Assembly (NCBI GenBank): GCA_037367355.1
Contig: CM074696.1
Coordinates: 2,728,001-2,792,000 of the forward strand
Origin: Neoscytalidium dimidiatum
Lineage: Eukaryota; Ascomycota; Dothideomycetes; Botryosphaeriales; Botryosphaeriaceae
Reading direction: 5' to 3'
Length of the DNA stretch: 64,000 nucleotides
Below the pieces are notes generated by a model, which saw only the letters and a program-made list of their open reading frames with translations, had not been told where the DNA came from and ran no database searches. Position 1 is the first letter of the stretch; every line of letters starts with the position of its first letter. The translations under genes and the position numbers were made by a program. This document shows, piece by piece, positions 34,336 through 58,565 of this stretch.

Positions 34336-35781
34336 CTACTTCGCCGTCTTCCTGGCCTTGAGGCTGTCCGGATACAGCTTCTTCCTCAAAATCTCAGCCT
34401 GCAGCGAATCCTTGGTCCTGGGCAGCCTCTCCTTCCCATCAACCGCGGCACCGGCCCACCTCTCGTTGAACTCCCTCGCCTGCCTCTCCTTCGACCACAG
34501 CTCGCCCTCGGCCTCCATCCTCCTGCCCAGCTCCCGCAACCACTCCAGCTCCGCCTCGCTGTACCGCACCATCTCCGCGCGCCCGGTCGCGGCCCCGTGC
34601 CGCTTCAGCACCTGGTTGCTCCACCTGTTCAGGACCGCGACGTCGTGCTTGGAGCGCCAGTCGATCTCCGGGATGTGATTGGGGCCGCCACGCCCGGTGT
34701 ACGTGTGCGTCTGCTCGACGCCCGGGTGCGCGTCGTCGACGTAGCGCATGGCGAGGTGCGCGGACTGGTCGGTGCCGTCGGCAACGAAGCGGTGTTGCGG
34801 GTGCAGCAGGCGGAAGCCGTTGGCGCCGGTGATCGGCTGCTGGTTGCGCTGGCGCTGCGCGATGGCGGCGGCGCTGCGCGTGCCGTCGGGCTTCGTCTGC
34901 CCGGTGGTGGATGGGGCGGCCCGCGGCGACGATGCCGGTGGCGCGACGCTGAACATGGGGCCGGCGTCGGTGATGGTCGTGAAGGAGCCGTCGCTCGTGG
35001 TGTTGTCTTCGTCGTCGGCGTCAGAGGCGACGTCCGATGCGGCGTCTTCGAGGATCTCGGGGTCGGCTTCGTCCTCAGTGTCGGCGATGCTGTGGCTCTC
35101 GTCGGTCTCGACTGCGAAGTCATCGTCATCGTCCTCCACCTGAGAGTCTTCATGTCCGTCCGCAATCTTGGAACTATCCTCTGTGCTATCGTTTTCCTCG
35201 GGCTCCGCGCCATCGTTACCCTCCTTGGAGCTGTGAGTGGAGGTGACTCTGGTGCTGGAACGTGCCGCAGCGATGCGCTTGCTAGATTGCGTGCCCTCCT
35301 TCAGTGAGGCCGGGGCCTTGCGCTTCACAAGTGGACGCGGGGAATCATCGCTGGCAAAGCTGTCCTTTTGATGCTGCGACTGCGCCTTGGGCGGCATGGC
35401 AACGCCCATCAACGCCATGTCTGCAAGGAATTCGTCCTCACTGATGGGCTGGAAAACATCAAAAACGCCAGGGTTGCCTCTGTGCTCGTAGCTCTTCCTG
35501 CTTCGCACGTTGCGCAAGAGCGTCTGGACGGACTTCTCCTTCTCGCGCTCCTCGGCCTCCATCCTCTTGATGGCGGCGAGCTCCTCTGCCTGTCTGGCAT
35601 CAACAACTGGCGGTGGCTTGGGAGCTCGAAGTCTCGGGTCGCGGCGCCTGTCTGTGTTGGGATCCATAGATTCGGACCTGACTGCAGTGTTGGAGCTCGA
35701 CAATGTCTCCGCGTCGTAACTGGAGGACATGGGCATGGATGGCGGAAGACCGGCGCTGCGCGTAGTTTTCCTGTTCGCCAT
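34336..35781 (-). CDS. Tandem-array family member 1, unknown function
   Basis: Single exon, 481 residues, starting at the ATG 35781 (MANRKTTRSAG). Residues 1-315 look disordered: a basic N-terminus, a Lys/Glu helix near 65-95, and a long Asp/Glu/Ser tract at about 195-265 (QVEDDDDDFAVETDE and similar). The conserved module occupies about 319-470. It begins GANGFRLLHP and has DQSAHLAMRYV, then IDWRSKHDVAVLNRWSNQ followed by a basic helix. The second half starts YSEAELEWLREL and has FNERWAG and LPRTKDSLQAEI. This second half resembles a diverged Myb/SANT fold: three helices with aromatic residues and a final basic helix. A nuclear, DNA- or chromatin-binding role is inferred from the acidic tract and this resemblance. 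It is closest to member 4, sharing G-x-NGF-x-x-LHP-x-x-RF and IDW-x-SKH. It has the most 3' position in the array. Confidence 0.75.
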   Translation of the reverse strand: MANRKTTRSAGLPPSMPMSSSYDAETLSSSNTAVRSESMDPNTDRRRDPRLRAPKPPPVVDARQAEELAAIKRMEAEEREKEKSVQTLLRNVRSRKSYEHRGNPGVFDVFQPISEDEFLADMALMGVAMPPKAQSQHQKDSFASDDSPRPLVKRKAPASLKEGTQSSKRIAAARSSTRVTSTHSSKEGNDGAEPEENDSTEDSSKIADGHEDSQVEDDDDDFAVETDESHSIADTEDEADPEILEDAASDVASDADDEDNTTSDGSFTTITDAGPMFSVAPPASSPRAAPSTTGQTKPDGTRSAAAIAQRQRNQQPITGANGFRLLHPQHRFVADGTDQSAHLAMRYVDDAHPGVEQTHTYTGRGGPNHIPEIDWRSKHDVAVLNRWSNQVLKRHGAATGRAEMVRYSEAELEWLRELGRRMEAEGELWSKERQAREFNERWAGAAVDGKERLPRTKDSLQAEILRKKLYPDSLKARKTAK

Positions 35782-36720
35782 GGCTGTACTGCGCTGTTGT
35801 CCGCGCGCAGAATGAGTGTTGGAGTACGATGTGCGTGTTTGTTGGCGGTGGACGCAAAGCGCGGTGCGGAAGTAGTAGCAGGTGCCGGAGGGGTGTGGGC
35901 GACTCAGGTTTTAAGCAGCCAGTGTGAGGCGGTAAAAATAAATACCGAGCGCTGTGTCTGTGAATGGGTACATTCAGTAAACATAGTACGGAGTGTCACG
36001 GGGCAAGAAGGCTTGATGGAAGGCCACGGAAAATCGCAACGTGCCAAGCAATTCACTCTCCTTCCAAACCCGTGCGCACCGCATCACGGCCTTTCAGATC
36101 GAGGTCGTCTCTGAAGAAATGGATGACTCTATCTGTGAATCCATGCACAGAGATTCTCTTAGAGAGTCCACCTCTAATTCTGTGGGAACTGTCTTGCACG
36201 AAAATGGAGCTCTCTGTGCTTGCTTTACTCGGATAATGGACATAGAGTAATGGCGATGGAGATCCTTCTTGTTGATTAAGTCGTTGTTCTAACCTTTTCA
36301 ATAGCACATGTATTTAGCTTGTGCCTTTCTGTCTCTTCGTTGCTTTAAGAGTGAGATGTTGAAAATATGAACCTATCTGCTATTGGAAGAGAAGAGTTAA
36401 ACTAGCCGCGTGTGAGTTTCTCCTCGAATGGCTATTACAAAGCAATCATCGCTTGTTGCTGCCAGCAAAAACGTTCCTCCAGTACAGCAAGTCTGAGATA
36501 CTGCAAATAGAATCCTCCTATCTCTTAGACACACGCCGCAGTAATTCCCTTAGTCGTTCACATTCGCGTCGAGCAAAACCACATGTTCTTAAAGTCTGCC
36601 ATCTTCGCCTGTTTCCCTCCGAATATCGAATGTTTCCAGCAGCGGAGCAAACGACGCTCTGATGAGCGAGTTTGCCACATCCCTCACCATGTGTGAGCGT
36701 CCACACGATTCCTCACTCTC
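35782..36720. other. Spacer within the array
   Basis: Promoter of member 1 and 3' region of member 2; no coding stretch recognised. Confidence 0.5.
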
Positions 36721-37662
36721 TCACAGCTTCTGTCCCCTCGTCCTAGTCTTCATCGTCGACCCCATCTTAGGGCCAGGCCTGTTGTTCCTGCCCCAATTCC
36801 TACCAGCCTTGATATCTCCCCACAGCTTGTTGCGGCGAACGAACGAAGTGATGGCCGACTTGGTGCGCTTCGGGCGCGGCTCGGTGAGGACACGCTTGCC
36901 GTTGGCGTCTTTGAACCGCAACACCCTACCCTCGAACCGCGCATTGAACTCGTCCACAAGGAACTGGTCCTTCGGCATGTCCTTCCGCTCCAGGCCCTTG
37001 AACATGTCGTTCAGCTGGCTCAAGAACGCCACTTCCTCGTCGGTGTAGTATCCGTCCCTTTCACCCTGGATCTTCCCGTCCGAGTCGGCCTTCTTCGCCC
37101 GCTGCTGCTTCGACGCGACCTGGGGACTCTCCCGCGCGATTTCCTTGCGCGACGCACCGCCATTCACCTTCTTCTGCTTCCCCTTATGAGCTGTAGTGCC
37201 CTTGTGCCACGGATGGTCCGGCTGGTCGTGCGCGAACGTGCTCTTGTCCAGGTCTGTGATGCGCGTGTACCGCTCGGTGTACAGCGGGCCCATCTGCTGA
37301 CGCAGCTTGTCACGCTGTGGCTGGCGTGCGGCGTCGACGCGGCGGACGAGCTCGTCGTAGCTGAGGGTTACGCGTTCATCGGGCGGGACGACGCAGTTGC
37401 TGGTGACGAAGTCGTCGGGGATGATGAAGCCCTGAGGATCGGGGAATGGCGTAGGAGGGGCTGCGCCACCGTTGCTGAGAGAGAAGGGGGTATTCAGCAC
37501 GCTGTCATCGCTGAAGGTTGAGGCGAGAGTCGTCTGGGGCGGAGGGTGTTAGTGGCTTGATCACCGAGTGAGAGCGAGTGAGGTGCGTACCTTGGTGTCG
37601 TATGAGAGTGGGCTGTGGCGTGCGGCGCTCGCCTGCGGCACTGGACTGTGGCCGTAGGACAT
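36721..37662 (-). CDS. Tandem-array family member 2, lacks the first half of the module
   Basis: Two exons, 37662-37591 and 37533-36721, flank a 57-nt phase-0 intron after DTK and give 294 residues starting MSYGHSPVPQ. The first half of the shared module is not clear: there is no DW...LNRW, although DQPDHPWHKG may be its remnant. The second half is well preserved at about 183-275: YYTDEEVAFLSQLNDMF, FNARFEGRVLRF, then PRPKRTKSAITSFVRRNKLW. It ends with a basic Gly/Arg/Lys tail (NWGRNNRPGPKMG). The intron lies at the same codon context (DTK followed by a phase-0 break) as intron 2 of member 3, its neighbour, which supports common descent. Its final helix is the most basic of the family. Function unknown. 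Confidence 0.72.
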
Positions 37663-38628
37663 GATTGCGAACGACAGAGACCCAAAAAGTGGGATCTTGG
37701 AACTTTGCGAGGGCGTGCGATATAAGGCGTATAGTGTTGGCTGGTGAACGCGTGGAGAACGCCGTCTGGGGTGTTGTGCAGCTAGTTTTCAAGGAGCTGT
37801 CCAAGAAGACAGGCTCTCGTTGTTTCGCAGAGGGTTGGAACAGGAAAAAGAAAATATCTAGATCCGCCTACGGCAAAAAAAGGAGATTGTGGATGCGTTG
37901 TGTGGCTCAAGGAGCTAGTGGGGTTGGTAGAGGAACTGCGATGGAGGAGCCGGCGAAAGAGGCAATGGCAGCGACATTTCGGTACCACTGCCCTAACACA
38001 ATTATCTTGGGATTTCAGGCAGTCACAACCGCCAGGTTTGACGAAAGAGCTATATATGTAGGCCTGCAATGGTTAAACTATCCTGCTGATCGTGTCCTGT
38101 TCACTGGCAGGCATTATCCAGCCATGGAAGCTGTGTTGCCACATGGCTATCCACTAGGTATGGGAGTCCACTATGAAATAAGGTCCGAAATTACCACCGC
38201 TACGAAGTACTAATGGGAATGCGCACCATAGCATATGCCCATTAGTTACTTTAGCATATGCTGAAGTTAACATCGTAATCTCACCGGCCCTTGAAAGTTA
38301 GCGGCGATAGACCCTGCAAGAGACGAACAGAATAAGGAAAAGGAGGGAGCAAGAAAGCCGCTTCGTGGGAAGAGTAAAAAGGAATCTTCCCTGTGTTGAG
38401 GGTGTCCATGATGTCTACACCTGTATATCCGCACCATGATGAAGAAACAAAACCAGAAGCGCATGTGATGGTGATGTGCGCCGGGCCTCCCAGATCCCTT
38501 GCTGTAGCACCATGCCATCCGTACCTGATGCCAGGCGTCTAACGCCTGTACGAACCGCTCATGTACCCTCCGTGATGGTGTCCTAATATCCTCCATTCCA
38601 CCACCCCTTCCTTTTCTCCTCCTCTCCT
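37663..38628. other. Spacer within the array
   Basis: No protein-like frame. The right half holds the 3' region of member 3, where an AT-rich palindrome-like sequence (gcatatgc repeats, about 38230-38262) occurs. Confidence 0.45.
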
Positions 38629-40752
38629 TCACACCTTCCTCTTCTTTAAAGCGGATCCACCCTGAGATCGACCCTTGCGCTTCTTGCCGCCTGCGCCCTT
38701 CACGGTCCCCTCCTCCTTCTCCTTCTTCTGCGGCGACTTGCGCTTCTTGGGCTTCAGCACAGGACAAAGGTTCTCCCTGTCGATGAACGACATGAGAGCC
38801 TCCCTCGTCCGCGCAGCGCGCGGTGCGGTCTTCGCCGGCTCGCCGTCCTTATTCGTGATCGGGATCTCCTTGCCCACGAACTCAGCGTTGAACGCCTCCA
38901 TCAGCTGCGACATGGTGGGAGGCGGCTTATCGTCCTTATGAGCGCGCTCGTACTCGCGGATCCACTCGATCTCGACCTCGGAGTACTTGCGGTCGTTCAT
39001 GTTGTCGCGGAAGCGGGGGAAGTCCCAGCGGCGCAGCCACTGCTTGTACCACTTGTTGAGGTTGTGGATGACCTTGCGGTCGTTCCAGTCGATCTCGCTG
39101 AGGTCCTTGCCGTCCTTGAAGCCGTACACGTGCTCGTAGCGGGCACGTTGGCCGTTCTCGTCGTTGGCGTAGTACTGGATCCTGAGCATCTCCGTCTGGT
39201 CCTTGCCGACGACGAAGTTGGCGATCTCGCTAATCAACTGGAAGCCGTTGCGCGTGCCGCTATGCTGGGTGATAGGGGTGGGAGAAGCGGCATCGCTGCC
39301 AGCGGGCGAGGTGTCGACAGCGGGAGACGACGAGGGCTCAGCGGAACTACTGGACGCAGAGTCGCTGCTGGCAGAGTTCGGCGGGACAGCAACCGGCAGC
39401 TTGACCAGCAGAGACTTGCGTCCAGACACGCTGGTGCTGGCCTCTGCAGCTTCAGCTGCGACGCGGCGACGTTTGGAGGGCTGCTGGGAGGCCTCCTGAC
39501 TCTCGCCAGCCGCAGCAAGCTTGCGCTTGTTGGCGTTTCTGCCAACAAACGCAACGCTGGGGCTGGACGAGAGACGAGCAGTGGCGTTTCTGCCACTGCT
39601 GTATTGGGGCTCCTGCTGGCTGCCGTCAGAGGACTGAAGGGAGCCGACACGAAGCTTCTTGCCAATACGAGGTTCCTCAGCAGTGTCCTCGGTGGCGACC
39701 TTGCGCTTGCGAGAGAGGCCACTGGTGGTGATCGGAGATGAAGCGGGAACGCGGGGTGGGCGGAGAATAAGACGTGGAGTTTTCCTCGGCAACTGGGCTC
39801 TCGGAGTGATGGTGGTGGTGCTGGGAGCTGATGGCTCAGTGGCCAAGGGAGCGTTTTCTCCAACAATAGAGTTCGCAACAACAAGCGTATGGCGGGGGCT
39901 CCCACGCGTGCGCGGGGCAACAGGAAGGCGGACGGGTTGAGGCTTCTTCACAAGCTTCCGAACCGGGGTTTTGGATTTCGGCTTGTGCAACTCCTGGTAG
40001 GCGGGAGTGCCAGGGATGAACGCGCCGGCTTTGACCTTGCTGTGAATATCTTCTCCCATGGTTTTGTTGTGCCAAACTTGAATTCTTTCGTCATGCTCAG
40101 CCTTCTGGCGCTTCATCTCCTCGACAGTGAGCTGGGTGGAGGATGAGGCATCAGTGATATTAGGACCGGCAGGCACCACACGCTGAATCTTGCCGAAAAC
40201 GAAAGCGTACTCTACCTTGGGCAAGGGAGCCTGGAGAGCCTGCTGATAGACGTGGCCGAGCTTCTTGCCCGTGTCGCCAAGAAAGAGGCGTGGTGCCATC
40301 ACGTCGTACTGGCGGATCTCGTAGCTGTAAGGGTACAGCAACGTGTCTTGAGGGGATGCAGCGGGATGGCGAGCATTAATGCGCATCAAGTTCTTAATGT
40401 TGATGCTACCATCAGGCTTGCGGAGCGGTGCAGGAGCCTTAGAGAGCGATATGCGTCAGTACTGAAGATCAAGATTGACATTATGTTGAGGCACTTACTT
40501 TAGTGTCACTGCCGTCAGCAATGCGCTGTTTGATCTTCTCAAAGGCATGCTCAACCTTGAGGCGGAAGGGAGAAGGCGGGCTGGAGGCCTTAGGAGCGGC
40601 GAGCTTACGCTTCGCTGCACCAGCTAGGATCCGGCCTGTTAGTGACAATTGTGAGTTACCAGTGTGGGACACTACGTACTATTGCCGGAGCCCGTGGAGA
40701 GCGGCTCAGCGAGAACACCGTCAGCGCGGCGAGCAGCACGAGTTGTAGGCAT
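38629..40752 (-). CDS. Tandem-array family member 3 with basic C-terminal tail
   Basis: Three exons, 40752-40680, 40635-40499 and 40437-38629, give about 672 residues (start MPTTRAARRADG). An in-frame ATG 15 nt up is equally possible, and the first acceptor could be 40623 instead; both keep frame. Intron 2 is phase 0 after DTK, as in member 2. The N-terminal third has a structured-looking stretch (LLYPYSYEIRQYDVMAPRLF, KVEYAFVFGKIQRVV) not seen in the other members. A Ser/Ala/Arg-rich linker follows. The module lies at about 465-630: RNGFQLISEI, IDWNDRKVIHNLNKWYKQWL, RKYSEVEIEWIREYER, FNAEFVGKEI, RAARTREALMSFIDREN. The last about 40 residues are Lys/Arg clusters (KPKKRKSPQKKEK, KKRKGRSQGG, LKKRKV), a convincing nuclear localisation signal. 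This is the best evidence in the family for nuclear location. Confidence 0.75.
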
Positions 40753-42294
40753 ACTGATACTGAACATTGATGAGCGTGTAGACAGGTTGGGTGTGCTAAA
40801 GCGAGGCGTCGAGGTGTCGTGCGGGAGTGTCGTGCTGTGGTATGAAGACGATACAAGGCGCAGGAATAGGGAGCGAAGGAGGATTGAAAAAGGCAGAGTC
40901 GGGAAGAGGAGCAGATCAAACGCGACGCGTACAGCAGGAACCAGGCAAGTCCGTTGAAGGACCATACCGCGTGTTAATTTGGCCTCCCGACGCCTATGCA
41001 CAGTTATGCGCGTCATAATGCCCGTTGTGACTGATAAGACAAATGCAGTGATTGAACTATAAGCAAATCCCTGCTTGCACCGCGCGGTACGCCCCTGAGC
41101 TCATTTTACAAAATCTCAGCGTCGAGTGATCTAGCTCAGAGGAGCTTTGGTTTAGACTTCGTCTTCAACCTTTTTTGTATGCGATAGAAGAGAAAGTGTA
41201 CATAAAACACAATAAGACTTAACAAAGTAGGCACAGTCGTTGTCACATGAACAACAAGGCCATTGAATGTATAGATATTTGTAAGATGAGAAGAGAGCGT
41301 GGGAGGGTTTCTTGTCAGAAATCTGGCTAGTTGATCAACAGCGGAGACTACTTGAGCGAAGAGTAAAGTAGCGAATAATAGACATTAGTTGTTGTGTGAG
41401 TCATAGCGGTGACCAAGTAACTATAGTACACATATAAAAAATACTTACAACTCAAAGAACCTGCATAGATAAAGGCGGTGTGAGAAGATATTGGGATTTT
41501 ATACGGGCTGTGCCCTGTATGGAGCCTTCATAACGAGTAAAGTAAGTCGTTGCTTTGCAATATTCAGATGGCATTCCGCAGCATATTTAGAATAGTAACA
41601 GCATTGTGCCTGGACAATGAACAATGTCACCACCATGGGACTAAATTAAAATCATCAACGCTATTTTAACACGGAAACACAATAGCAAGGGCATAGTATC
41701 TGGATAATTAAAAGACAGTAGCAAGGAGTAACAATAGTACAGCGTCCAAACAGAGCCTTAGTACTGCTATTCACCGCCACCTTCGCATAGTTCATTGCTC
41801 CTCGTGTTTGTACGAGCGTACACTGGCAGTTGCATACTTGAAGACAATTACATATTTACATATCAGTTTCCCATCCGTAACTGATACTTGCGAGGTTTGA
41901 AATACTATTGCTAGCGGCGAGGAATTAACCGCGAAACACTTCCTCTACTTGCTGACTGAATTGGCGTCTATACGGATGGTGAGTTGCTTGTCAGAAGGCC
42001 CTACAGGCGGCTCCACAGACTCTCCTCTATCATTTTGAAGAATCAAAACTCAAATGATTATCGGATCAACACCCGCTTCGAATACCTCTTCTCAAATTAC
42101 CATGAGTGCCAGCAGTGGATGGATCAAAAAAGGTTGAACCAGTATTCATAATCAATCCAGGACTCCCATCCGCATTGCCAATAAGAAAGGAAATTCCACA
42201 TCCCCTCCATCGTGCTCTCGTTTGAACTTCACAAATCTCCCTATCCGTCGTCCCTTGAATGTATGGATGCCATATCAGCAGGTGTATAAGCTGA
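40753..42294. other. AT-rich spacer within the array
   Basis: From about 41030 to 42050 the sequence is AT-rich with no long frame on either strand. It contains no recognisable family remnant. Part is presumably the promoter of member 3 and the 3' region of member 4. Confidence 0.5.
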
Positions 42295-44688
42295 TTACTG
42301 GTGTTCGATCTGTTCGGCGACTCCATCAGCCATGGTGTTATCGTGAACATCACTGTCGAGCTCAACCTCGACCTCGGCATCGTCCATGCGGACATCTTCT
42401 CCCTGGACGTTCGACACTTCGCCGTCAACCAAGTCCTCACCGTAGCCATCCTCTCCATCCTCCATAGTATATTCCTCAACATCCTTCAATACACTCCTTA
42501 CCGCCTCTTCAGCAACCTCCTTGACGGTCTCGCTCAACGCCTTGCTCATCGTGCTGGTAGTATTACCGTCAACAGCTCCCTCCTTCTTCGTCTTCTTCGC
42601 TGGACGGAAGTTCTTCTTGCCCTTCAGACACGCAAACGCACCCGAGCGGGTCACAAAGGCGCTCAACGTCTCCGTCGACCTCACCAGCTTCCTCACAACC
42701 TTCTTGCCAGTCGGCAGTGTGACCTCCCTCTCCTGTCCCCCAAACCACTCATTGAACATCTCAAACAGCTTCTCCCTCGTCACATCCTCATCATCCGCGT
42801 ACTTCTCCGCAAGTCCCTTCAAGAACTCCTCCTCCTCCACCGTCCACATCCTCGCCCGCATGTCGTCGCGCGCCGGCAACGCGCCGTTGCGTCCGACCAC
42901 CTGGTTTGGCCAGCGATTCAGGTTGAGGATGTGGTGCTTGCTGCTCCAGTCGATGTTGCGCATCTCCTGGCTGCGGGGCATGTAGTGGTGCGTCCACAGC
43001 TTGCGCGTGCCGTTGCGGTCGTTCTTGTAGTACTGAATCACGAGCTTGGCCGACTGGTCGATGCCGTTGGCTTGGAACCTCGGGAGCGGGTGCAGCGTCT
43101 TGAAGCCGTTGGGGCCGTATATGATGCCCTTATTGTCGCGGTAGATGCCGTTGCCGAGGTGCGAAGGGTTGGCGATTTTGGAGACGCTGGAGGCGGTGTT
43201 AGGGGTCTGGAGTGTGGCAGAGAGTCCAAGCTGCGTGCGAGTGCTGTTGTCGGCCGAGTTAGGGGCTTTGGTGGCGAGCTTGGTGGTGCTGCGCTGCGCA
43301 GGGGCAGAGCTTTGCGGGACGGTGGCGCTGAATATATTGCGGCCAGCGGTGCTAGTTGAGGGATGTAGAGCGGGTCTGGAAGTCTTCTCAGAGGCACCAC
43401 TCTGCGCGGTATTGATGTGTCGGCGCGCGAAGTTCTCGATGAGCGGCTCGACGTCAGGGGCATCAGTGTCGGAGTCGTGGTCAGCGCCTTCGCCCTTATC
43501 GAGCTGTGGGGCAGGTATCACCTCTTCAGCCCGCTTATATGTTGCCGTGTCACGCATGGTTTCCACGGTGTTGAGAGGCTGCCACTGCACATGGAAACAA
43601 GGATGCCTCGGAACACGGGTCGTCACGGTAGAAACGGACTCTGTCGGCTTCCCACTGACCTCACTGTCTAGGCCGGGGCCACTATTGCGGAAAGGATCAC
43701 GTTGAGTTAGGAGCTTAGCCCCTCGTGGCTGGGCAAACAGAGGATGTTCCGAAAAGGCAGGGATTGGTGGGTTCGAGGATGCCGATAATGAGACAGCCTT
43801 GCTATGCGGAGTATCTGTCTGCGTACCGGGATCGCGCAGCACCTCAGCAAAGCTAACAGGGATCTTCATCTTCCGGTGCGGGCGAGTGTCGTTCTTCTCC
43901 GAAATGGCTGCAATGCTCCTGATGTTGGTGTCACGCACAGGGCTGCTTCTGGTATTGTTCCCATGAGATGCCTCATCCACGTAGCTCTGAGCCAGCTGCA
44001 AGGGCGAGCTGGTGGAATAAGGCCTAGTGGTATTGGACGAGTTGTCGAAGGCAGTGGACGCAGTACGCTTACGGCGCTGCTGAATTCGCTCGAGATGGTC
44101 GGCGAGTTCGCTTCCGCTCATGCGCAGCATTTCAAGAACATGCTCACGAGTCTTGGCTGGAAGAGGTTGGCCCTCATAAACTGCCAGCATCATGGAAACA
44201 ATCTGCACAACGTTGATGTCCTCAGTGGCAGTCGGATTGTATTGTGCATGTCCCGGAACAGGCACTGGAGGATTGTAGAGGTGGACGCGGTCATCAGTCC
44301 CAACGAACATGCTTGCATTACCTGGATCGTGATCGAAGACTTCGCCGTTGCTGTTAGGAACGAAAAATGGACGGTCTCCACGGCGCTCGTCGATACAAGC
44401 ACGAATATATAGGAGATGAGTTAAGTCGTGGTCAAGGTTGAAGACAGCGCTGGCATCGTATAGGCCGTTGACTCTTGCAACCGTTATCTCATTCTTCATA
44501 GAAAGAAACCTTTCCTCAACACGGTCCATGTACTCTTTCATCTGATTCTGTCGTGTATGCTGGCTGGAAATTGTATTTGAAGGCTCAAGGACTACATAAA
44601 GTCCGGTCAGCTGCGGTACCGGAATATTCTGGGATTAGATCTTACCATGTGGAGCACGCCCATCATGATTAGGGCGTTCGTCTGCCAT
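42295..44688 (-). CDS. Tandem-array family member 4, largest member
   Basis: Two exons, 44688-44646 and 44591-42295, with a 54-nt phase-1 intron give 779 residues, starting MADERPNHDGRAPH. The first about 150 residues look folded and helical, unlike the disordered N-termini of its relatives (YMDRVEERFLSMKNEITVAR, DHDLTHLLYIRACIDER, then a helix rich in Met, Leu and Glu). A disordered Ser/Thr/Pro linker follows. The module lies at about 505-670: GPNGFKTLHPLPRF, DQSAKLVIQYYKND, IDWSSKHHILNLNRWPNQ, MWTVEEEEFLKGL, FNEWFGG, LVRSTETLSAFVTRSG. It ends in a Lys-rich patch and a long acidic tail (VEVELDSD). It is the closest match to member 1 across the first half of the module. Confidence 0.77.
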
Positions 44689-46096: not shown

Positions 46097-47884
46097 CTAT
46101 GCATCCTCATCTTCTCCCCACCCGTAAGCCGTGAACCCACCACTCGCAAAATCCGCTACCTTCCTCGCAACCGCCTCCTCAGAACGGAACGGACACGTGA
46201 TAGTCTTCCACACGCCACCCACCCTCACATAGACCCTCCTCCCGGCCCACCTCTCATTCCACTCCCGATACAGCCCCTCGCCCTCCAAACCCTCCTTCAT
46301 CAAATGCCACAGTGCCTCCTCCTCAACCCACAGCAATCGCGCCCCCTCCTGACGCGCGTTGTAGCAGCCCATTCGGCGCAGGAACCGCATGACCCAGTCA
46401 TTGCAACTCTGCACGTCGGTCTCCTTGTTCCAGTCAGGTATCACGCCGTCGTAAGCCTCATAGGCGACGCCTTCGCGCCCGTTGATCGTGTACGCGATGG
46501 TCAGCATGTCGGGAGCGGGGACGCCGATCCGGAAGACGGGAAGCGGATGCGCGAGGACGAAGCCGTTGGCTCCGGTGACAGGCTCGACGGCGCAGGTCCG
46601 CGCGTTTGCCGTGCCGGAGCGGGTTGTTGGAGCGGTAGAGGCGGGTTCATTGCGCTTGAGGGAGCGGTGGAGGAGCGGCATGGTGGTGGAGGTGGTGGGG
46701 TGGGGGTAGTCGCGGAGGATGTAGGTCCGGGTGGATAGATTGGAGGCGAAAGGGTTGGGCGCCATGCTCTGAATGGTTGCTGGAGACGGGGCTGCCTTGG
46801 GGGCGATGTTGGAGTTGGTGGATTGGTGATCGCTGACGTGATCGGGTAATTGTCCAGCGGCACGGGCGAGTTCATGCGCAGTGGCTGGCTCTTCGCTCTC
46901 CAGCGCAGGCGAGGCGTGCACAGAGGTCTGATGTTTGGATGGCGGAGAAGCAGAGCCTGCCTGCTCGCTAGCAGGGTGTTTAGGGTTCCCCAAATGGTTC
47001 TTTCCTACTTGATGAGTTTCCTCAGTTTCAGTGCCTTCCATCACAACATCCTGAGGAAGGTACTCCTCTTCTTCATCCGCCTCAGTATCGCTTCCGGAAG
47101 AGCTTGTACTAGGGAAATTGTGAGGCTGATATGCCACAGCGTCATCCTCGGTCTCCTTCTGAGAGTATGTAATCCACGTTGTATGCCTGATGGGATGTGG
47201 TGTAGCCTGGACAGGCAGCTCGATCGTCTTCAGTATGGGACTCACTGCATCTGATTGCTTCGGCCTGAGTATTTTAGGTTTCTTCTTGTCCGCCTCCTTC
47301 TGTTTCCTCTCCTCTGCCATCTGGGCCCTCGCAGCGCGAGCTTCCTCCATCTTCTTCCTGTTCCAAGCCTTCGTACCGACAGCTGGATATTCCCGAAGAA
47401 ACCTCTCGTATCCATTCTTCATATGCTCATGCCACTCCTCCGCAAGTTCAATATCCTTCTCGCGCTCGGTACGAACATCGGTGCCAGCCTCGTCGCGCCT
47501 CGCCGTCCTGGCTAGAGTCTTGGTCTCGCGCTCATCAGAGCGGCGGATCTGCGTCTTCATGCGAGCAAATAGGTTAGGAATGCCCTCATACTCCACCTCT
47601 GCTGGATCATCGGAATCGACGGCAATCGGATGCTTCGGTAAGCGTGATAGCATCGCCTTGACCATATCCTGCTCGACGTCCGCCATCTCGGGCTTGCCCG
47701 TAGGATGGATGTCGCCGACGAGCGGCGTGCGCAAGTAACTCTCCACTGGCATTTCAAAGCTTCGACTGGCAGTATTTAGCTCCGGCATCGTTTTGGGGAG
47801 CGGGTTGCGGTCGCTGTGCGTGTTTCTGCTGCTGCGGACATAGCCGGAAGTCCGCCTTTTGGCTTCGGGCTCAAGGATTCCCAT
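46097..47884 (-). CDS. Tandem-array family member 5
   Basis: Single exon, 595 residues, ATG at 47884 (MGILEPEAKRRTSG). The N-terminal half is highly charged, with a predicted long helix (KKMEEARAARAQMAEERKQK, about 180-205) and then an acidic stretch (SGSDTEADEEEEYLPQD). A Ser/Thr/Pro linker leads to the module at about 438-580: GANGFVLAHPLPVFRIG, IPDWNKETDVQSCNDWVMRF, LLWVEEEALWHLM, WNERWAGRRVYV, then FRSEEAVARKVADF. The LNRW of other members is CNDW here and the FN core is WN. So this copy is more diverged but all landmarks align in order. It ends with a short acidic tail rather than a basic one. Role unknown; nuclear by analogy with member 3. Confidence 0.75.
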   Translation of the reverse strand: MGILEPEAKRRTSGYVRSSRNTHSDRNPLPKTMPELNTASRSFEMPVESYLRTPLVGDIHPTGKPEMADVEQDMVKAMLSRLPKHPIAVDSDDPAEVEYEGIPNLFARMKTQIRRSDERETKTLARTARRDEAGTDVRTEREKDIELAEEWHEHMKNGYERFLREYPAVGTKAWNRKKMEEARAARAQMAEERKQKEADKKKPKILRPKQSDAVSPILKTIELPVQATPHPIRHTTWITYSQKETEDDAVAYQPHNFPSTSSSGSDTEADEEEEYLPQDVVMEGTETEETHQVGKNHLGNPKHPASEQAGSASPPSKHQTSVHASPALESEEPATAHELARAAGQLPDHVSDHQSTNSNIAPKAAPSPATIQSMAPNPFASNLSTRTYILRDYPHPTTSTTMPLLHRSLKRNEPASTAPTTRSGTANARTCAVEPVTGANGFVLAHPLPVFRIGVPAPDMLTIAYTINGREGVAYEAYDGVIPDWNKETDVQSCNDWVMRFLRRMGCYNARQEGARLLWVEEEALWHLMKEGLEGEGLYREWNERWAGRRVYVRVGGVWKTITCPFRSEEAVARKVADFASGGFTAYGWGEDEDA

Positions 47885-48764: not shown

Positions 48765-49394
48765 CTAGAGACGCGGGTTGTCCTCTGGCTCCTCGTCCCA
48801 TTCATCCGACATGTCATCCTCATCCTCATCCTCATCCTCATCCTCATCCTCCTCCATGTATGGGACCCCACAGCACACATCGCCGTACTTGGCTTTGTAC
48901 TCCGCAAGCTTCGCCTTGTATTCCCTCCGCTTTGCCTTGTACTCCCTCCGCTTTGCCTTGTACTCTTCCAGCTCCATCTCGTACACCTCCCGCCTGCGCC
49001 TCCACTCCGCAATGCTCACCACCTCCTCCTTTCTGTCCACGGCACTGCTGACCTCGTGAGTCTTGAAGTCCTCGCTACGCTCATACCATCCAACCAGCTG
49101 CTCGGCTGCGGCGCGTTTGCGGTTCTTCTCCTCCTCGCCCAGCTCGTTGCCGTCCTCATCGGTCTCGGACCAAGGGCCGAGCTTCTCCTGCTGCATGTAC
49201 GCGATGTGGTTTGGCAGCTGGCCAGGAGTGTGCGTCGCGGCGGTGTTCGGGACGTGCGTGGTGGCCCGACGCTGGAGGTTCTGCTCCCAGTGCGCGTACG
49301 AGGTGAGGGCGCGGGAGGCGATGGCGTTGGCGGAGTCGGCAGCGTCCGTGGCGGAGGCGCTGGTGCCGCCCGGATCCTGAGCGGAAGAGGACAT
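48765..49394 (-). CDS. Acidic coiled-coil protein inside the array, without the module
   Basis: Single exon, 209 residues, ATG at 49394 (MSSSAQDPGGTSASATDAAD). It shares strand, size of spacers and acidic character with the flanking genes, but I see no DW...LNRW or FN-x-x-F-x-G landmarks. The C-terminal half is a helix made of a seven-residue repeat: YEMELEEYKAK, then three units of EYKAK(R/L)(R/A)E. After CCGVPYM it ends in an Asp/Glu repeat encoded by six copies of a hexanucleotide (48814-48849), and then DEWDEEPED. The 7-residue period is what a coiled coil needs, so it may be a partner protein that oligomerises or binds a basic protein. It could be an unrelated gene captured in the array or a member that lost its module. 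Confidence 0.65.
   Translation of the reverse strand: MSSSAQDPGGTSASATDAADSANAIASRALTSYAHWEQNLQRRATTHVPNTAATHTPGQLPNHIAYMQQEKLGPWSETDEDGNELGEEEKNRKRAAAEQLVGWYERSEDFKTHEVSSAVDRKEEVVSIAEWRRRREVYEMELEEYKAKRREYKAKRREYKAKLAEYKAKYGDVCCGVPYMEEDEDEDEDEDEDDMSDEWDEEPEDNPRL
48814..48849. repeat. Hexanucleotide microsatellite, six perfect copies of TCATCC
   Basis: Six uninterrupted copies inside a coding exon; on the minus strand they encode alternating Glu and Asp. Copy number changes would keep the frame, so the length of the acidic tail may vary between strains. Confidence 0.9.
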
Positions 49395-50119: not shown

Positions 50120-51619
50120 TTAGATGGACCACTCCTCCATCTTGATGGTGCGGTAGAACTCCTTTGTGTTGACCTTGCCGGGGCTGCTGAAGAGAGACGA
50201 GTGCTGCACATCATCCGAGTCAATCTCCTGCTTGCCCTCCTCGTCTTCCATCTCGTCATCTTCAGATTCCAAGACGCTATCGACATCGATGTCCTTGTCG
50301 CCGCCTCCGAACATCATCTCCTGCAAGTTCTCCTCCTCCCATTGCTCACGGAGGTTCTCCGCACGCGCACGCAGCATATGGTTGTCGATCGCACAAGTCA
50401 CTGCATGCTCGGTGCGCTTGACCTTGAAGCGCCTCGTCACGTCGACAGAGAGATCGTGCTTGATGACACTGGGGTCGCGGGCCAGGCGCTCCACTATGTA
50501 GTTCAGGGCATCATCGCTCCACTTCAGGCGGGCCTCGCGCGAAGTGATGCCCAGCTTGCGCTGACGGAACTGGGAGCGCCAGCGGTTGAGCGCAGAGATG
50601 CTAGCACCATCGTTCCAGTCAGCAGGAGGAGCATGAACGTTCATGCGGCGGCGCATGGTGCCATCGGGGCGCTCCTCGTCCTCGATCAACATGAGGAGGC
50701 GCGCCTGGTCCTGCTCGCGAGACGTCATGCACTGTGCGCTGGGCGGGCGGTGTGCCATGCGGCCCTTAACGAACGGGGCGTTGTAGACGCGAAGGCCGGT
50801 CACGGGGAAGTGCGCGCAAATCGGGACAGAGCGCTCGGCGGAGAGGTGGGCGCCACGCTCTCCAGCGAGGTAGGCCTCCCTGGTGATGGTGATGGGCTGG
50901 AAGATGTCTTTGCCATCGATCTGGAAGTGATGGAATGGAGTTGCCAGAGAGGAGACGCCAGCGGCCTTGTACAGGCCTGCAGTCATTGTGTTAGTGTTTT
51001 AGAGGACGTGGAAGTGGGAAGAACGTGGCTCACCTTTCTTCTCATCGAAGACGAACTTGGGACCCTTGTACTCGTAACGCTTGGCGTAACGTTGCGAAAC
51101 GCGCATGCCGCCCTTAGGCTTGCCGCAGATGCATTTAGAGTTTACGTTGGGGATGCTGCCAGTGTCGGTAGTCTCCTGAGCTGGCTTGGAGATGGGGCGG
51201 GCCTCGCAGTTGAGCTTGGTGTCCCAGTAAACGCCGTTACGGATCGGGAGATCAGGAGCTCCGAGGTCCATCTCATTGGCCTCGCGCTTGGACATGTTGT
51301 AGGCCTCACTGCCGCTGGTGTTGGTGTTCACCGGGGCGGACTCGCTCAGCTTATCGCTGAGAGAAGGTGAGAGACGAGACGTGTCACCCGTAACGGGACT
51401 GGCGCGTTCATAGGCGCTCAGCTTATTGAGGTAGGCAGGAAACTCAGGAAGGTCAGAGGAGCTGCCGACAGCGGCAAAGCGCTGCGGAACCGGAGGGGAG
51501 CTGGGAGGAGGTGAAAACTTGGAGCCAAGTCCAGCGGCCGGAGCCTTCGAAACGGCCTTGCCATGCTTGCGGATGGCTGACTGAGCCTTCTTGACGGTGG
51601 AATGCTTGCTGGAGGTCAT
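50120..51619 (-). CDS. Tandem-array family member 7
   Basis: Two exons, 51619-51034 and 50976-50120, with a 57-nt phase-1 intron in FDEKK|G give 480 residues, starting MTSSKHSTVKKAQS. The N-terminus is basic and Ser/Pro-rich. A Cys pair (KCICGKPKGG) and RYAKRYEYKGPKFVFDEKKG precede the intron. The module (about 300-410) begins MNVHAPPADWNDGASISALN, continues RWRSQFRQRKLG, then LKWSDDALNYIVERL, VTRRFKVKRTEHAVTCAIDN. It is more diverged in the second half: the FN core is RRF and the RT helix reads RTEHAVTCAI. The C-terminus is acidic (SEDDEMEDEEGKQEIDSDD). The intron position, the block R/K-MN-(V/I)-HAPPADW and the spacing of LNRW are shared with member 8 next door, making these two the clearest sister pair. 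Confidence 0.75.
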
Positions 51620-52973
51620 GATTGATGGACGTTGCTACTGTCGCTAAATGCTAGGGAGAGTTGCAAGAGGCGGTGATCCGAGCGAGACCAAAAGCTGTAC
51701 GAGAAAAGATCTTTGTCAGTTGGAGAAAGAAAGATGACATGAGAGAAGGGCCATACGAATTGTTGAGCGACCAGCAATGTCGCAATTAGGGTTGCAGCTA
51801 GAGAGCTTGAAGTCACTACACGCCGTGTGCGAGAGTTGTTGAGTGACGAAGAGAGAGTGAGGGTCGGTGTGAGGTTTTGGATTCAAATAGGCGGGGCTAG
51901 GCAGTGAGCGCGAGAGAGCAGAAACGAGGCGCGCGACGGCGACAGCCCGGGCTAGTGCACAATAGGGAAACTTGAAAATAAGCTGGTAGAGGAAGTGTGA
52001 ATGCAGCTGCGGCTCCTCGCAAAGCTCGGCAACGAGCGGCTGCGCGAATATCTGCAAGCTGCGCACTCGCGCCCAAATTCTGTGCTCAGGGTTCACGGAG
52101 ATGTAGAGACGACGTCTCCAAGATGCAATAAGTGTATGGCTTCCTCAGGAAGTGCTATATCTATCATGTAGCCATCGCAAGGCGGCCGAATGCCTCACTG
52201 CGGGCTCAGTAAAGAGGATCGCGCGTAGCTTCAGCGCACTTCGCACTACCCACAGCAGCTCACGTTCTTCTCGCTCAGAGCCTATTGACAATACTTATGC
52301 TAATTCATGGCTTCTCGACGTGTTTCATAACTTGTCTAGGTGAGGTTGAGGTGAAGTTACTACCAGCTTTATCAGATACTGTCCGACAGATTCGGCGTCT
52401 ACTTGCCGCTACTCGTGACGATGTATCAAATTGTACGCAACTCAGCAGTCATTTAGAGTTACATTATAGAACTTTTCTACCTTACACGCACCATTAAGCT
52501 CCTCTATCGCTGATCTACAATGTGAATCGTCGGTGGCGTTCATACTCAGTACTATATTCGTGACGATCGCGTAGGCTGAGGGGACTTGACTGTGTCAGCA
52601 AGTTGCGTCCACGCTTACAACAAATTTCTATGACGGCATAGAGCTTTTGATGCACTAGTACTCATTCCATTCTCTCAGGACTTGCTAAATTAGGCACGTA
52701 ATCTTTCCATTCTTAAGAGGAGCTTCCTTGAGAGTTGTCACCGTGATGGCAAGGAATCACGACCAGAAACATTTAATTTAGTAAGAGACCTACTCAACTT
52801 TTCAGCTTTACATTGATACTTTAATCTACGGCTCTACCACATCGAAGGTATACTTTGAACCCTACTGCCTGCTATCTGCACGTACAAATGCTTAGTCATC
52901 GTGGAAAGCCAAAACGGTATCTTCCAGGCTTCGCCAAACAGCCAACAGAGTGAAGATCGCCTGCTTTTTCCTC
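51620..52973. other. Spacer within the array
   Basis: The first 500 bp is the likely promoter of member 7. The rest to 52950 is AT-rich with no protein-like frame. Confidence 0.5.
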
Positions 52974-55192
52974 TCACAGATGGAGACTTCCGCCGGAGAC
53001 GAAGTGCTGTTTCGTGCGCTCCTTCATCTGCTGGACTACGTTCTTGTAGTCGCTCTCCTTGATCTGCACACCACCTTCAGACTCGTCCATGTCGTCGACA
53101 GTATCCCCCTTCCGGCCTCCACGTTGGGTGACCACGTTGCCTTTATGGACCGCCATGTCGAGCTCTCGGCCGACATCCTTGCTCTCGCTATCAGATGAAG
53201 AGTAATTCACAAGGATCTTCTTCAAGGGGTGGCGATTGACGGTAATCTTCGGGCCCAAGGAGTCTCCATCGTCGCTGAGCGGTCCAATGTCCGATAGCTT
53301 CCTCTTCTTGCCAGTCGCCTGATTCCCGTGAACGTCGCGAGATGCCAGCACGTTGGCAATATCCATCTGGCCACGCTTCTGCATTCCTTGGTTGCTCATC
53401 TTCGTGTTGACATCCTCCGTCGTAGTGTGAAAGTCGGCAGCGTTGGCAGCCAAGCCAACAAAGTTGCCGCTCTGGCGCTGAATGTGCTCTTCCACAGCGC
53501 CACTCTTGTCGGGGCCCTCCTTCTCAACGTCCTCAGAAGCCTCCTCATCGTTGTCTTCCACATCCGCCTCCCCGTTCTCCGCCTCTTCAATGCTCTGCTC
53601 CAGAAGACCATCCTCTCCCTCGACCTGCACCAACGCAGTACCACCGCCCTTCGCCTCCCCCAACAGCCGATAACGCCCCACAGCCATCACAACCGCGGCA
53701 TATGTCCTCTCGCTCTGCGGCCACCGCTCCGCCAGAACCTCCAAGACATCACGATACACGACCTTGCCCCCCTCCCGCAACTGCCTGCCCACCTCCTCAC
53801 GCAAGCACGCCACCTCCTCCTCGGTCCAGGCGTTGCGCCTGCCCGGCAAGCCCGCCGCCCGACGCTGCCTCTCGCGGAACGACGCGAACCAGCGGTTCAG
53901 CTTGCGCACGCTCGCGCGGTCGGCCCAGTCAGCGGGCGGCGCGTGGATGTTCATCTTGCGGACGTTCTCGCCGCCGTCCTGGCCGCTACCACCCGGCGCG
54001 ATCAGGCGCAGCGAGAGCGCCTGGTCGGTGTAGTGCGCGGTCGCCATTTCCTCGACGCCGCTGTCTTCTGCGGTGGAAGGGGGCTCGTCGTCCGCGCCCT
54101 CGACGTCCGTCTCGGTGACGTGGTCGATCGACATGGCGTCGTCGTCGTTGTCGTTGTCGGCGTTGCGGATGAGGGAGGGGCCGGACGCGCGGGGCGTGAT
54201 CTCGCGCGTGCGGATCGTGCGCTTCAGGAAGCGCGCGCCGGCGGTGAAGAGCGAGCCCTCGTCGAGGATGCCCGGCGAGACGGGGTAGTGGCGGTCGCAG
54301 GCGGGTACGGGTACTTCGACGCTCAGCGTGAGGGGCGCCGCGTCGGCGTTGGAAGACGCGATGGCAGCGGCTGCGGTGGCGTCGTTTTGTGGAGCGGCGG
54401 CGGCGGCGGTGGCTTCCTGCTGGCGCTGCTTGCGCTTGTCTTTGGTGGAGTTGGGGTTGAAGGGGAAGGTCGAGCGCTTGGGGTCGCGCGCGCCTGGGTC
54501 GTACCAAAAGCCTATCATTTTGGAGCGTGTCAGTGAGCTTTATCGAAGACTGAGGATATGGATGTACCTTTTTCGTGATCGAAGTAGGGAGGGTCGTCAG
54601 AGGCGCGAGTCAGCGAGCTGGAATTGCAAGTGCACTCCATCGCGTTGGCGCTCGCGCTCTCCAGGTCGAGTTTGGTCATAGCGGCTGCGACGTCTTCCTC
54701 ATCGGCGCGGATAGGCACAGACACACCGAAGTCCTCCTCGTCTTCATCATCCGAGCCCTCATCGCGGAAGATCTGGCCGGGAAGGAAGACCGCGGGAGGG
54801 CCACGAGGGCCTGGATTCAGCGTGGTCCAGTGTTCCTGAGGATACCAAGTCTCTTCATGACCGTCCGGGTGGATGTAGCCTGCTTCAGTGAGCTGTCCAT
54901 AATTGGGCGCGCTGCTGGACGATTGCTCTTCTTGGTCAACGGCATCTGCGACGGAGATAGACTCGCCTTCAGACCCGTTGCCAAAGGTAAGTACGTCATC
55001 GTTTTCGTTAAAGTTATCGCCGTCGGGCGGGCAGGAGGAAGAGGACGAGGAGCTCATCGAGTCATCGCTACCCAAGTCGATGTCGGGACCCTCTTCATCG
55101 TCAGCGGTCTGCATGAATTCGTTCAATGCAGCAGCAGCAGCAGCATCAGCGTCGCAGCTGAGACGGGGGTGTTGAAGGTCCACGTTAGACAT
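52974..55192 (-). CDS. Tandem-array family member 8
   Basis: Two exons, 55192-54568 and 54511-52974, with a 56-nt phase-1 intron in FDHEK|G give 720 residues, starting MSNVDLQHPRLS. The first exon is acidic and Ser-rich, with an Ala run from a CAG/AGC repeat near 55128-55147. It also has a tidy block PDGHEETWYPQEHWTTLNPG. The second exon starts GFWYDPGARDPKRSTFPFNP and continues into an Ala-rich helix. The module is at about 395-500: RKMNIHAPPADWADRASVRK, LNRWFASFRERQ, NAWTEEEVACLREEVG, LAERWPQSERTYAAVVMAVG. WTEEE with the downstream RTYAAV helix is the closest in the family to a canonical Myb repeat. A long charged C-terminal region follows, with basic patches (GKKRKLSD, RGGRKG). Sister of member 7. 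Confidence 0.77.
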
Positions 55193-57590
55193 GGTGGTGA
55201 CGTTGATGCGGACGAAGATGTTGTGGTAATGGAGAAGAGTGCACAGGCGATAATGGTGTACGCACTGCTTCGCACGCAGCAACGTAATATCAGATTGGCG
55301 AGACCCTGAAAATCGCCTGTGACATATGGCCAATATCGATTAGCTCTTATGCTCGGTAAAGAAGCTCTTCTTAGTAACACTTAGACATTACATTCTTTTC
55401 TGCGTACTCGATTCGTTTTGCAACAGACCCAGCGTCTTGTACATCTATGTGTTAAGCTGACGGGTACAGCTATCGCGATCGAAGTAGAAAATCTTTCCCA
55501 TTGTGGCTGATTTGCAGACATATAATCTCATCTTTGACAAGCTATGCTAACACTTCCAGTATCACAACACGCCCTAAAGAGCCACAAAACGGATTAAACC
55601 GCCATGCCGCCCGCATCAGTTATGCTCGATGCCAGCAGCCCACGCGGCCTGGAGGAACGCTGAATCAGACAGTAGCGCGCAGTCCAGCTGGCGGAGGTAT
55701 GCACCGTATAGGTAAAGAAGCCCCACAGTACGAGAAGCTCAGTTCGCTAGTTTACATAGTATACAGTAGTGTGAAGAAGTGTTTCTCAAACGACAAGGTC
55801 ATGCGCGGCCGTTCAGTGCAGCACTACCGTCGCCAACGCTTGCGGCGCGAGACCGCAATCACCAAGAGCCAGACAGCCGAAGGCTACATATTGCGCACTG
55901 ATAACTAATTTTTAGCTATTTTCTCCTTAATTAATGTACCGTTCTAGCCATACGATGGAGAAATCAGGAAATCCTGCGACGAATCTCCAGTTGCGACGTA
56001 CAATTAATACGTTACACAAGGCCGTTGATCAGTAGCTGGCGGACTGCGGTGACGGCCGGCAAGACAGTGCTACCAGCGCTCCCCATCTACACTCAGGCTC
56101 CAGATAGCACAAGTTGAGTGGACCCATTTTGCGGATAGGTCTTGAACATGTAACGTCCGATTGCTTAAAGCGAAGAAGGCCACGGCTCGCATAACACCGT
56201 TACGGGCGACGTCTAGGTGCAAGCTTGTATAAGCATCAATCTACTCTAGCATTTGAAAGCGTCTGACCGAGTAGATTTGCAAGCGGATGAGAAGCAGTCC
56301 CTTCAAATAGCACAGCAATCGTGCACGGCGCCGACGCTTTCCAGGGGATTGAAGTCACCGGTTATGTGCTGCTCACGTATATCAGCAGCACTCTCATAGC
56401 GCACCATTCATATTTCCGTCTGCCTCACCAAGCGGGAAGTGAACGTAATAGTACCGTTTCAGCCACAAGCTGACGTCCCAAGGCGGGTGGCGCCAATAGC
56501 AGGGATCATGTCGCTTGCAGACGCGGGCCCGATGCCAGACGAAGCAGGAGAAAACGGCTGTTCTCCGGCATTGGCCATGCTTCGCATTGTGCCACGAACA
56601 ACTCCATTATCCATCATCTCCATGAAAATAGAGCCGTGGCCCAATTTTCATTGCCAACAAACCTGCTAAATCTCCGCGATGCCTTTTTTGTAATGCTACC
56701 TCGGAATCATTCACTTTGTTGGCAGCGGCGCACACCATATTCGGTATCCACACGTATAACTGCTCCGGATGTCGATTCTCATCATCATAGAGTCCAGTAA
56801 GTGACAGCAAGTTATTAAGGACTCTCGCTCTCCTGTTGAACTTGAATCCGCTATCATGCAGGCTCGTCACTAGTGTCTGCAGGTCTCTTCTTCCGCTTGT
56901 CGTCAGGGCGGTTTCCCCTCGAGCTCGGGGTTCTTCGTAGTGTTCTGAACCTGTCCGCGGGCATCATAGTGTATATTAGCGACTTGCACCTATTAGAAAG
57001 CCAGGAGTTATCTGTCAACTTTATGTCTAGTAACATGGAGTGCTACTGTTGCCTTCTGGATGTATCGCTACCTGCGCTCGGATATAATCAACTCTTTAAC
57101 GCTTCCTGCGTCACAGGGGCTATCCGCGCGCGGCCGAATATGAGCCACGGAGGTGCACCCCATACTTCTGGAGTATTTCCCATCAAGAGTTAGAATTAAT
57201 CTTGTCAAAGTTAGAGGTGTGGCCAGAAGAAGAACAACAGCAGGTACGCAAGGAGAGAGGGTTGGGGAGCAAAGAGCGTGCCGTCGCTCGCGCTCTCGCA
57301 GTGAAATGGCAGAAAGTAGTATCGTTTGCAGATTCTTACTGAAGAGGCATAGAGCAGGGAGTGAAATACATGCGGGTAATCGGCCCAGGCCGCTGACAAG
57401 TGAGCAGGAGCATTGCAGAAGAGCTAATCAACCAGCCCGTCCTATAAGCTAGCCATCAGCCATTTAAGATAATTAGTACATCGAAACCATCTAAAATTAA
57501 AGGATGTCTTTCCCTTCCCATCTCAATTATGCTATTTTCCTGCTGTCTGCCGCAGAACCCCCTCCCTGTCTCATCTCTCAGAGAGCACTC
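55193..57590. other. Spacer within the array, with possible relics
   Basis: The minus-strand frames 57036-56854 and 56870-56607 read partly like protein (NRRARVLNNLLSLTGLYDDE) and overlap in different frames, as in a decayed gene. No start, stop or splice model is convincing. The rest is non-coding; the first 300 bp is the promoter of member 8. Confidence 0.4.
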
Positions 57591-58565
57591 CTAACGACCC
57601 CGTCCCCTTCCACGTCCACGTCCCCTCATCATATCCTCCTCCCACTCCCTATCCCACAACGCCCTCCTCTCAGGCAACAGGCCCTTCTCCCTGACCATCG
57701 CCCTCATCCCAGCAACCCCCCTCTCCCTAAACGCAACCTCCCGCCCATCCTCCAACGTCACGTTCCTCCCCTCCAAATACTCATTCAACGCCCTCACAAT
57801 ATCCAAATCGTGCATGTTAGGCTGCGCCTCGCACATCGCAACCACGTAGTTCCTCTCCTCCCTGCCCCACGCCCCCGTATGCTCCCCGACCCCGGCGTAC
57901 CCGTTCCTCGCCATCCAGTACCCCCACACGCGATTGAGGTTCGCCACGGTCGCCGGGTCGGCCCAGTCGCGCGGCGTCATGGGCCACGCGTACGGGAAGG
58001 GGCGGGCCTCGCCAGCCGCGCGGCTCCAGACGGAGCCCTGCAGGCGGGCGGCCTGGTCGAAGGCGGCGGCAGCGGCGGCACCTCCGCCGAGGAAGCGGCC
58101 GCCCGGAGTGAAGGGGAGGGTGTAGAAGGGGCGCGGGTCGTGCAGGTCCGCGGAGACGCAGGGGGCGGCGGGGAGGTCCGTCGCGAGCGTGTAGGCCAGC
58201 TCCAGGCATGCGTCGTGCAGGAGCGTCGTGAAGCAGGAGCGGACGACGGGGATCGCGGCGGAGAGGGTCGGGTCGGCCGTGTGCGAGAGGGTGGCCGAGA
58301 TGTGCCCGCGGATCGCGGCGGCAAGGACGGTGGCGGGGGAGAGGTCGTGGCGCGTGTGGAGGGTGTGGATGATGGTGGTTTGGATGGTGGGAGGGCCGTG
58401 GGTGTAGGCGTGGAGGGCGGCGCGCTCGAGGTGCTGGGCCAGGCGGACTTGGGCCGGGTCGCGGAGGTGGGCGAGGGTCAGGGCGAAGGTCTTGGTCATC
58501 GTGGCTTGGATGTGGGGCTCAAGGGCCTGGAGGAAGACGGTGACGTTGGTAGCCGTGGTGGTCAT
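57591..58565 (-). CDS. Tandem-array family member 9 with RG-repeat tail
   Basis: Single exon, 324 residues. The ATG at 58565 (MTTTATNVTVFLQALEPHIQ) is the first real ATG; the frame is open further up only with non-ATG codons. This is the most compact member and the only one whose N-terminal half looks folded throughout: amphipathic helices such as LRDPAQVRLAQHLERAALHA and a block rich in Ala, Thr and Cys. The module is at about 200-310: MTPRDWADPATVANLNRVWG, then YWMARNGY, WGREERNYVVAM, LNEYLEGRNVTLEDGREV, FRERGVAGMRAMVREKG. LNRV replaces LNRW and NEYLEG replaces FN-x-x-F-x-G. The C-terminus is a run of Gly-Arg dipeptides, which in other proteins binds RNA or DNA. Coding GC content is the highest of the array. 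It has the most 5' position. Confidence 0.7.
   Translation of the reverse strand: MTTTATNVTVFLQALEPHIQATMTKTFALTLAHLRDPAQVRLAQHLERAALHAYTHGPPTIQTTIIHTLHTRHDLSPATVLAAAIRGHISATLSHTADPTLSAAIPVVRSCFTTLLHDACLELAYTLATDLPAAPCVSADLHDPRPFYTLPFTPGGRFLGGGAAAAAAFDQAARLQGSVWSRAAGEARPFPYAWPMTPRDWADPATVANLNRVWGYWMARNGYAGVGEHTGAWGREERNYVVAMCEAQPNMHDLDIVRALNEYLEGRNVTLEDGREVAFRERGVAGMRAMVREKGLLPERRALWDREWEEDMMRGRGRGRGRGR

Follow-up and report, generated by a model that had tools for sequence, protein, structure and literature searches.

Two described groups of domains come closest to the protein module considered here, which is carried by eight genes (g1–g8) of the fungus Neoscytalidium dimidiatum. The first is the Myb/SANT domain (PF00249), which the module resembles in its predicted three-helix fold, in the W/Y-T/S-x-x-E that opens helix 1 in most members and in the R-T/S ahead of helix 3. 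The second is the helix-turn-helix of HTH_32 (PF13565) and of Tc1/mariner transposases, where the likeness consists of a sub-threshold match over the three-helix region and of structural matches that include Mos1 and Sleeping Beauty. The array differs from the former by the 10–20 residues that separate helices 2 and 3 in six members and by an additional hairpin and the DW/LNRW helix, which precede the three helices, and from the latter in that the Pfam matches of ten open reading frames (ORFs) of the window include no transposase domain. The window is the 64,000-nucleotide stretch C2:2728001-2792000 (contig CM074696.1) of a genome of 43.76 Mb in 40 contigs; the array runs from 34336 (the g1 stop) to 58565 (the g8 start).

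We regard it as moderately probable that this is an old tandem array of eight paralogues, together with one small gene of another kind inside it, encoding nuclear DNA-binding regulators of a family so far seen only in Botryosphaeriaceae. Our best reading is of a nuclear helix-turn-helix family restricted to this lineage, in which g6 is the conserved anchor and other copies have diverged; its DNA-binding role is one that we infer.

A module common to eight genes

The homology of the eight modules was observed directly with profiles. When each member in turn was left out of the hidden Markov model (HMM) and searched for among 878 decoys, all eight ranked first of the 879 sequences, with E-values from 8.7e-8 to 2.2e-30 against 0.07 for the best decoy. 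The modules also align in the profile-profile comparison whose failure, according to the sequence-only reading of this DNA, would have refuted it: hhalign placed g1, g3, g4 and g5 against g6 and its seven homologues with a probability of 92 and a score of 45.6, while 60 column shuffles reached at most 17.9. Pairwise scores are uneven, not significant for g8 with g1, g2 and g5 or for g2 with g5 and g6 and marginal for g1 with g2 (5 of 300 shuffles score as high), so that g2, g5 and g8 owe their membership mainly to the profile. When the HMM is built from the g6 group only, g7 and g1 stand well above the decoys, g8, g4 and g3 less so and g5 barely, and g2 does not appear among the matches at E ≤ 1.

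The sequence-only reading had described the module by ordered landmarks near the C-terminus. The module is indeed common to the eight genes, but the landmarks are not literally present in all of them: even slightly relaxed patterns match in six of eight modules for DW...LN, and in four each for FN..(F/W).G and RT..A(L/I/V). Literal matching understates the family and was set aside as a family test in favour of the HMMs. The module is also longer than had been described: upstream it extends into a segment that has a conserved G...DQ...L. The modules of g2 and g5 are eroded, and g2 lacks the first half, as had been noted.

The limits previously given are exact: they enclose nine minus-strand genes of coding-like character, g1–g8 and ORF x, the last being the only one to be clearly coding-like by codon usage among 69 ORFs tested (at least 60 residues, within 34000–59500, overlapping array exons by less than 30%). 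Two further ORFs of the 69 have marginal scores, and one of these lies antisense to ORF x. ORFs 50999–51619 and 54530–55333 are read as the first exons of g6 and g7 and not as separate genes. The exon models were drawn from intron signals and open frames and are predictions throughout; they give two exons to g2, g6 and g7, three to g3 and one to g1, g4, g5 and g8. The features are as follows.

34336..35781, minus strand: g1, 481 residues, single exon; module 34369–34818
36721..37662, minus strand: g2, 294 residues, predicted exons 37662–37591 and 37533–36721
between the g2 exons, minus strand: predicted intron of 57 nt with a CTAAC branch-like site
36817–37062, minus strand: g2 module, three-helix half only
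38629..40752, minus strand: g3, 665 residues, predicted exons 40752–40680, 40614–40499 and 40437–38629; module 38758–39252
42295..44541, minus strand: g4, 748 residues, single exon; module 42625–43113; leads AlphaFold2 model m3660542ae8ec
42643..42840, minus strand: g4 predicted three-helix unit, beta-hairpin 42691–42732 between helices 2 and 3
46097..47884, minus strand: g5, 595 residues, single exon; diverged module 46139–46570
48765..49394, minus strand: ORF x, 209 residues, no module; EYKAKRR repeats and an acidic run
50120..51619, minus strand: g6, 480 residues, predicted exons 51619–51034 and 50976–50120; module 50366–50719
50381..50515, minus strand: g6 predicted three-helix unit, helices 50477–50515, 50426–50461 and 50381–50410; candidate DNA-binding part
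51101–51226, minus strand: second conserved block of g6, containing cysteines, in exon 1
52974..55192, minus strand: g7, 720 residues, predicted exons 55192–54568 and 54511–52974; module 53655–54032
57591..58565, minus strand: g8, 324 residues, single exon; module 57669–58133

The predicted splice junction of g7 lies at an FD..KG motif, similar to that of g6. ORF x, inside the array, carries its EYKAKRR repeats in tandem and a long acidic run.

Outside the module, the N-termini had been called unrelated and disordered. They show no similarity, none of the 36 pairs (ORF x included) exceeding a z of 3.5, but the N-terminus of g8 is not disorder-like by composition; its first 144 residues are more hydropathic, and the arms of the other members are of low complexity. 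Basic clusters are present in six of the eight members and lie in the tail of g3. The modules have a low net charge, and the arms hold acidic stretches.

The reach of the family was examined at several scales. Within 264 kb no significant further member was found beyond the eight, the next match having an E-value of 0.15, and in the whole genome, searched with six of the modules (all except g1 and g2), every match at E ≤ 0.001 lies inside the array; these searches were pairwise and in six frames, so that a remote member split by an intron could escape them. The earlier suggestion that the module belongs to no named family stood up in Pfam, where no family reaches its cut-off for ten ORFs of the window or for the seven g6 homologues. 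Matches of single modules (AlkZ-like, E 0.0067, and five others, each in one member) and one NCBIfam match (E 0.034) were taken as chance. No sequence relative was found in the PDB with profiles A2 and A5 at E ≤ 10, and g7 alone gave two weak matches (E 0.21 and 0.81). Judging by title or abstract start, no paper was found that treats the module family.

The conserved anchor g6 and the age of the array

New here are close homologues of g6 in Botryosphaeriaceae (Macrophomina, Diplodia and, by record name, Neofusicoccum). Seven homologues were found. The four that carry names all come from genera of this family, in line with the lineage restriction proposed from the DNA, and three are unnamed. 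MPH_05985 (Macrophomina phaseolina), BKCO1_5000061 (Diplodia corticola), SLS55_009975 (Diplodia seriata; 480 residues, the length of our g6 model) and GTA08_BOTSDO04247 (record name Neofusicoccum parvum) are probably orthologues. All four are recorded as hypothetical or uncharacterised, without a Pfam domain, and their names did not occur in the literature searched. The searched region is 58–70% identical in the Macrophomina, Diplodia and Neofusicoccum records, identities that by themselves point to a fungus of the Botryosphaeriaceae other than those strains; a search for 5.8S rRNA, meant to place the species, gave no match. The module occurs beyond this genome, with one member well conserved in other genera.

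Identity along g6 is strongly uneven. The module core (QDQAR to LR) is 62–76% identical across the seven homologues and the preceding CAHFP block 62–70%, while identity is 25–33% over the first 115 residues (in four of the seven, one of these compared over just 16 residues) and 24–42% in the tail. The module is therefore the most constrained part of g6, the constraint being strong and directly observed; it was measured against homologues for g6 alone among the eight members. The basic LNRW helix is strongly conserved in the homologues.

A second block in exon 1 of g6 (51101–51226; WD.KL.C.ARP.S ... KC.CG...GG.R) keeps its three cysteines in the three full-length homologues, where the surrounding region is 49–58% identical; it is possibly a metal site.

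The farther apart two members lie in the array, the less alike their modules tend to be (r = −0.42; among the 40320 gene orders 1.6% are as extreme), which supports tandem duplication, as the sequence-only reading had proposed. Its further idea of a family expanding locally is not supported as a recent process. Over all 28 pairs the paralogous modules are 15–37% identical in protein and 36–56% in DNA, and their third positions are 33–56% identical where composition alone predicts 33–45%, that is, near saturation. These identities indicate that the array is old and not freshly expanding. Furthermore, the g6 core shares more with its homologues in other genera (62–76%) than with g7 (33%) which, rates being comparable, would place the g6–g7 duplication before the split of those genera.

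An array with a single conserved member could also be one in which g6 is the only working conserved gene, the remaining seven tandem copies being neutral or in slow decay, which we consider rather improbable. It would account for the erosion of the g5 and g2 modules and for the finding of g6 alone in other genera, the same protein collection giving no relative for residues 325–470 of g1 among 832 candidates or for whole g3 among the 8000 candidates sharing most words, the only ones scored. But all eight genes, although deeply diverged, have retained long open frames and a coding-like codon usage. Moreover, the collection was queried with the g1 region, g3 and g6, not with g2, g4, g5, g7 or g8, and its search needs shared 5-residue words; the two negatives are weak evidence and bear on g1 and g3 only.

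Predicted fold and role

The AlphaFold2 models led by g4 and by g6 both contain a hairpin, the DW/LNRW helix and three helices. We describe the module as a predicted beta-hairpin and basic DW/LNRW helix followed by a three-helix, homeodomain/Myb-like helix-turn-helix. Between helices 2 and 3 there are 10–20 residues in g1–g5 and g8, predicted to form a beta-hairpin in the g4 model, and only 3–4 in g6 and g7. In the comparison with known folds, also proposed earlier, the g6 three-helix unit weakly resembles helix-turn-helix DNA binders, which make up most of the closest folds listed; the g4 model, with 339 Foldseek matches at E ≤ 10, had none at E ≤ 0.001.

The likeness to Myb is most evident in helix 1 (W-T/S-x-E-E). 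Compared with the genome's Myb domains (15 of the 48 PF00249 matches were used), the paralogue alignment scores higher than every shuffle, both in the local test (100 shuffles) and in the global one (60). The local match, however, extends over helix 1 alone; for helices 2–3 by themselves 12 of 60 shuffles score as high, and for the g6 profile 6 of 60 do. None of the 48 genome matches to Myb_DNA-binding (PF00249) at E ≤ 10 falls in the array, and hmmscan lists none. Membership of the Myb family was rejected.

A resemblance of this kind raises the question of a SANT-type domain that binds protein or chromatin, in which case the proteins would be adaptors of nuclear complexes that do not read DNA sequence. 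The low net charge of the modules and the acidic stretches in the arms, like the helix 1 signature, would suit such a role; the DNA binders among the closest folds of g6, weak as these matches are, and the strong conservation of the basic helix ahead of the unit speak against it, and we think it unlikely, if less so than decay of the seven copies.

HTH_32 matches five of the seven g6 homologues below threshold (best 16.6 bits, cut-off 33.7) and has no match in the array's own genome at E ≤ 10; on these grounds membership was rejected. The same matches, with Mos1 and Sleeping Beauty, are what would favour an origin of the module in a captured Tc1/mariner-like transposase helix-turn-helix, duplicated after domestication. 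Such an origin is very unlikely given the silence of PF13565 in this genome, the lack of a transposase domain noted above and an arrangement as a same-strand array, partly with predicted introns.

We return to the nuclear DNA-binding regulators. The nuclear role proposed from the DNA is plausible because of the helix-turn-helix-like prediction and the basic clusters in six of the eight members, and the most likely mechanism, judging by fold, composition and constraint, is regulation through DNA binding. Helix 3, which holds the RT-x-x-A motif, would read DNA, the basic DW/LNRW helix may supply added contacts and the divergent low-complexity arms might recruit partners; g6 would retain the ancestral role, the remaining copies having diverged. 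The proteins would then represent a DNA-binding-like family that has no name, is apparently confined to this lineage and carries an unusual insertion in its helix-turn-helix; a family profile would make several 'hypothetical proteins' of plant-associated fungi a testable regulator family.

Repeat-induced point mutation and neighbouring genes

Gene copies as divergent as these would be expected to escape repeat-induced point mutation (RIP). RIP-like indices occur in 4 of 66 blocks of 4 kb (264 kb), none of them in the array. The four lie 44–64 kb to the left of the window start (window −64000 to −44000, C2:2664000-2684000, loci L020–L022), are AT-rich and have strong dinucleotide indices. RIP is reported for Botryosphaeriaceae (PMC8336260), and the array would show, in such a fungal family, one tandem copy conserved beside several that have diverged. 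A very unlikely extension is that this is a fast-diverging nuclear helix-turn-helix locus, with a new inserted-hairpin variant of the fold and one conserved member as its anchor, whose copies are kept for internal genetic conflict (silencing of mobile DNA, the centromere or nuclear incompatibility) and not for ordinary regulation; the array would then persist in a genome with RIP-like mutated repeats solely because the copies differ too much for recognition.

The array's locus lies between the side with an SPB4-type helicase and receptor-like ORFs and a TBC-like gene. The SPB4-type ribosomal RNA helicase exceeds its Pfam cut-offs, whereas the receptor-like ORFs have only sub-threshold matches to Git3-type models; together with the predicted introns these mark the window as fungal.
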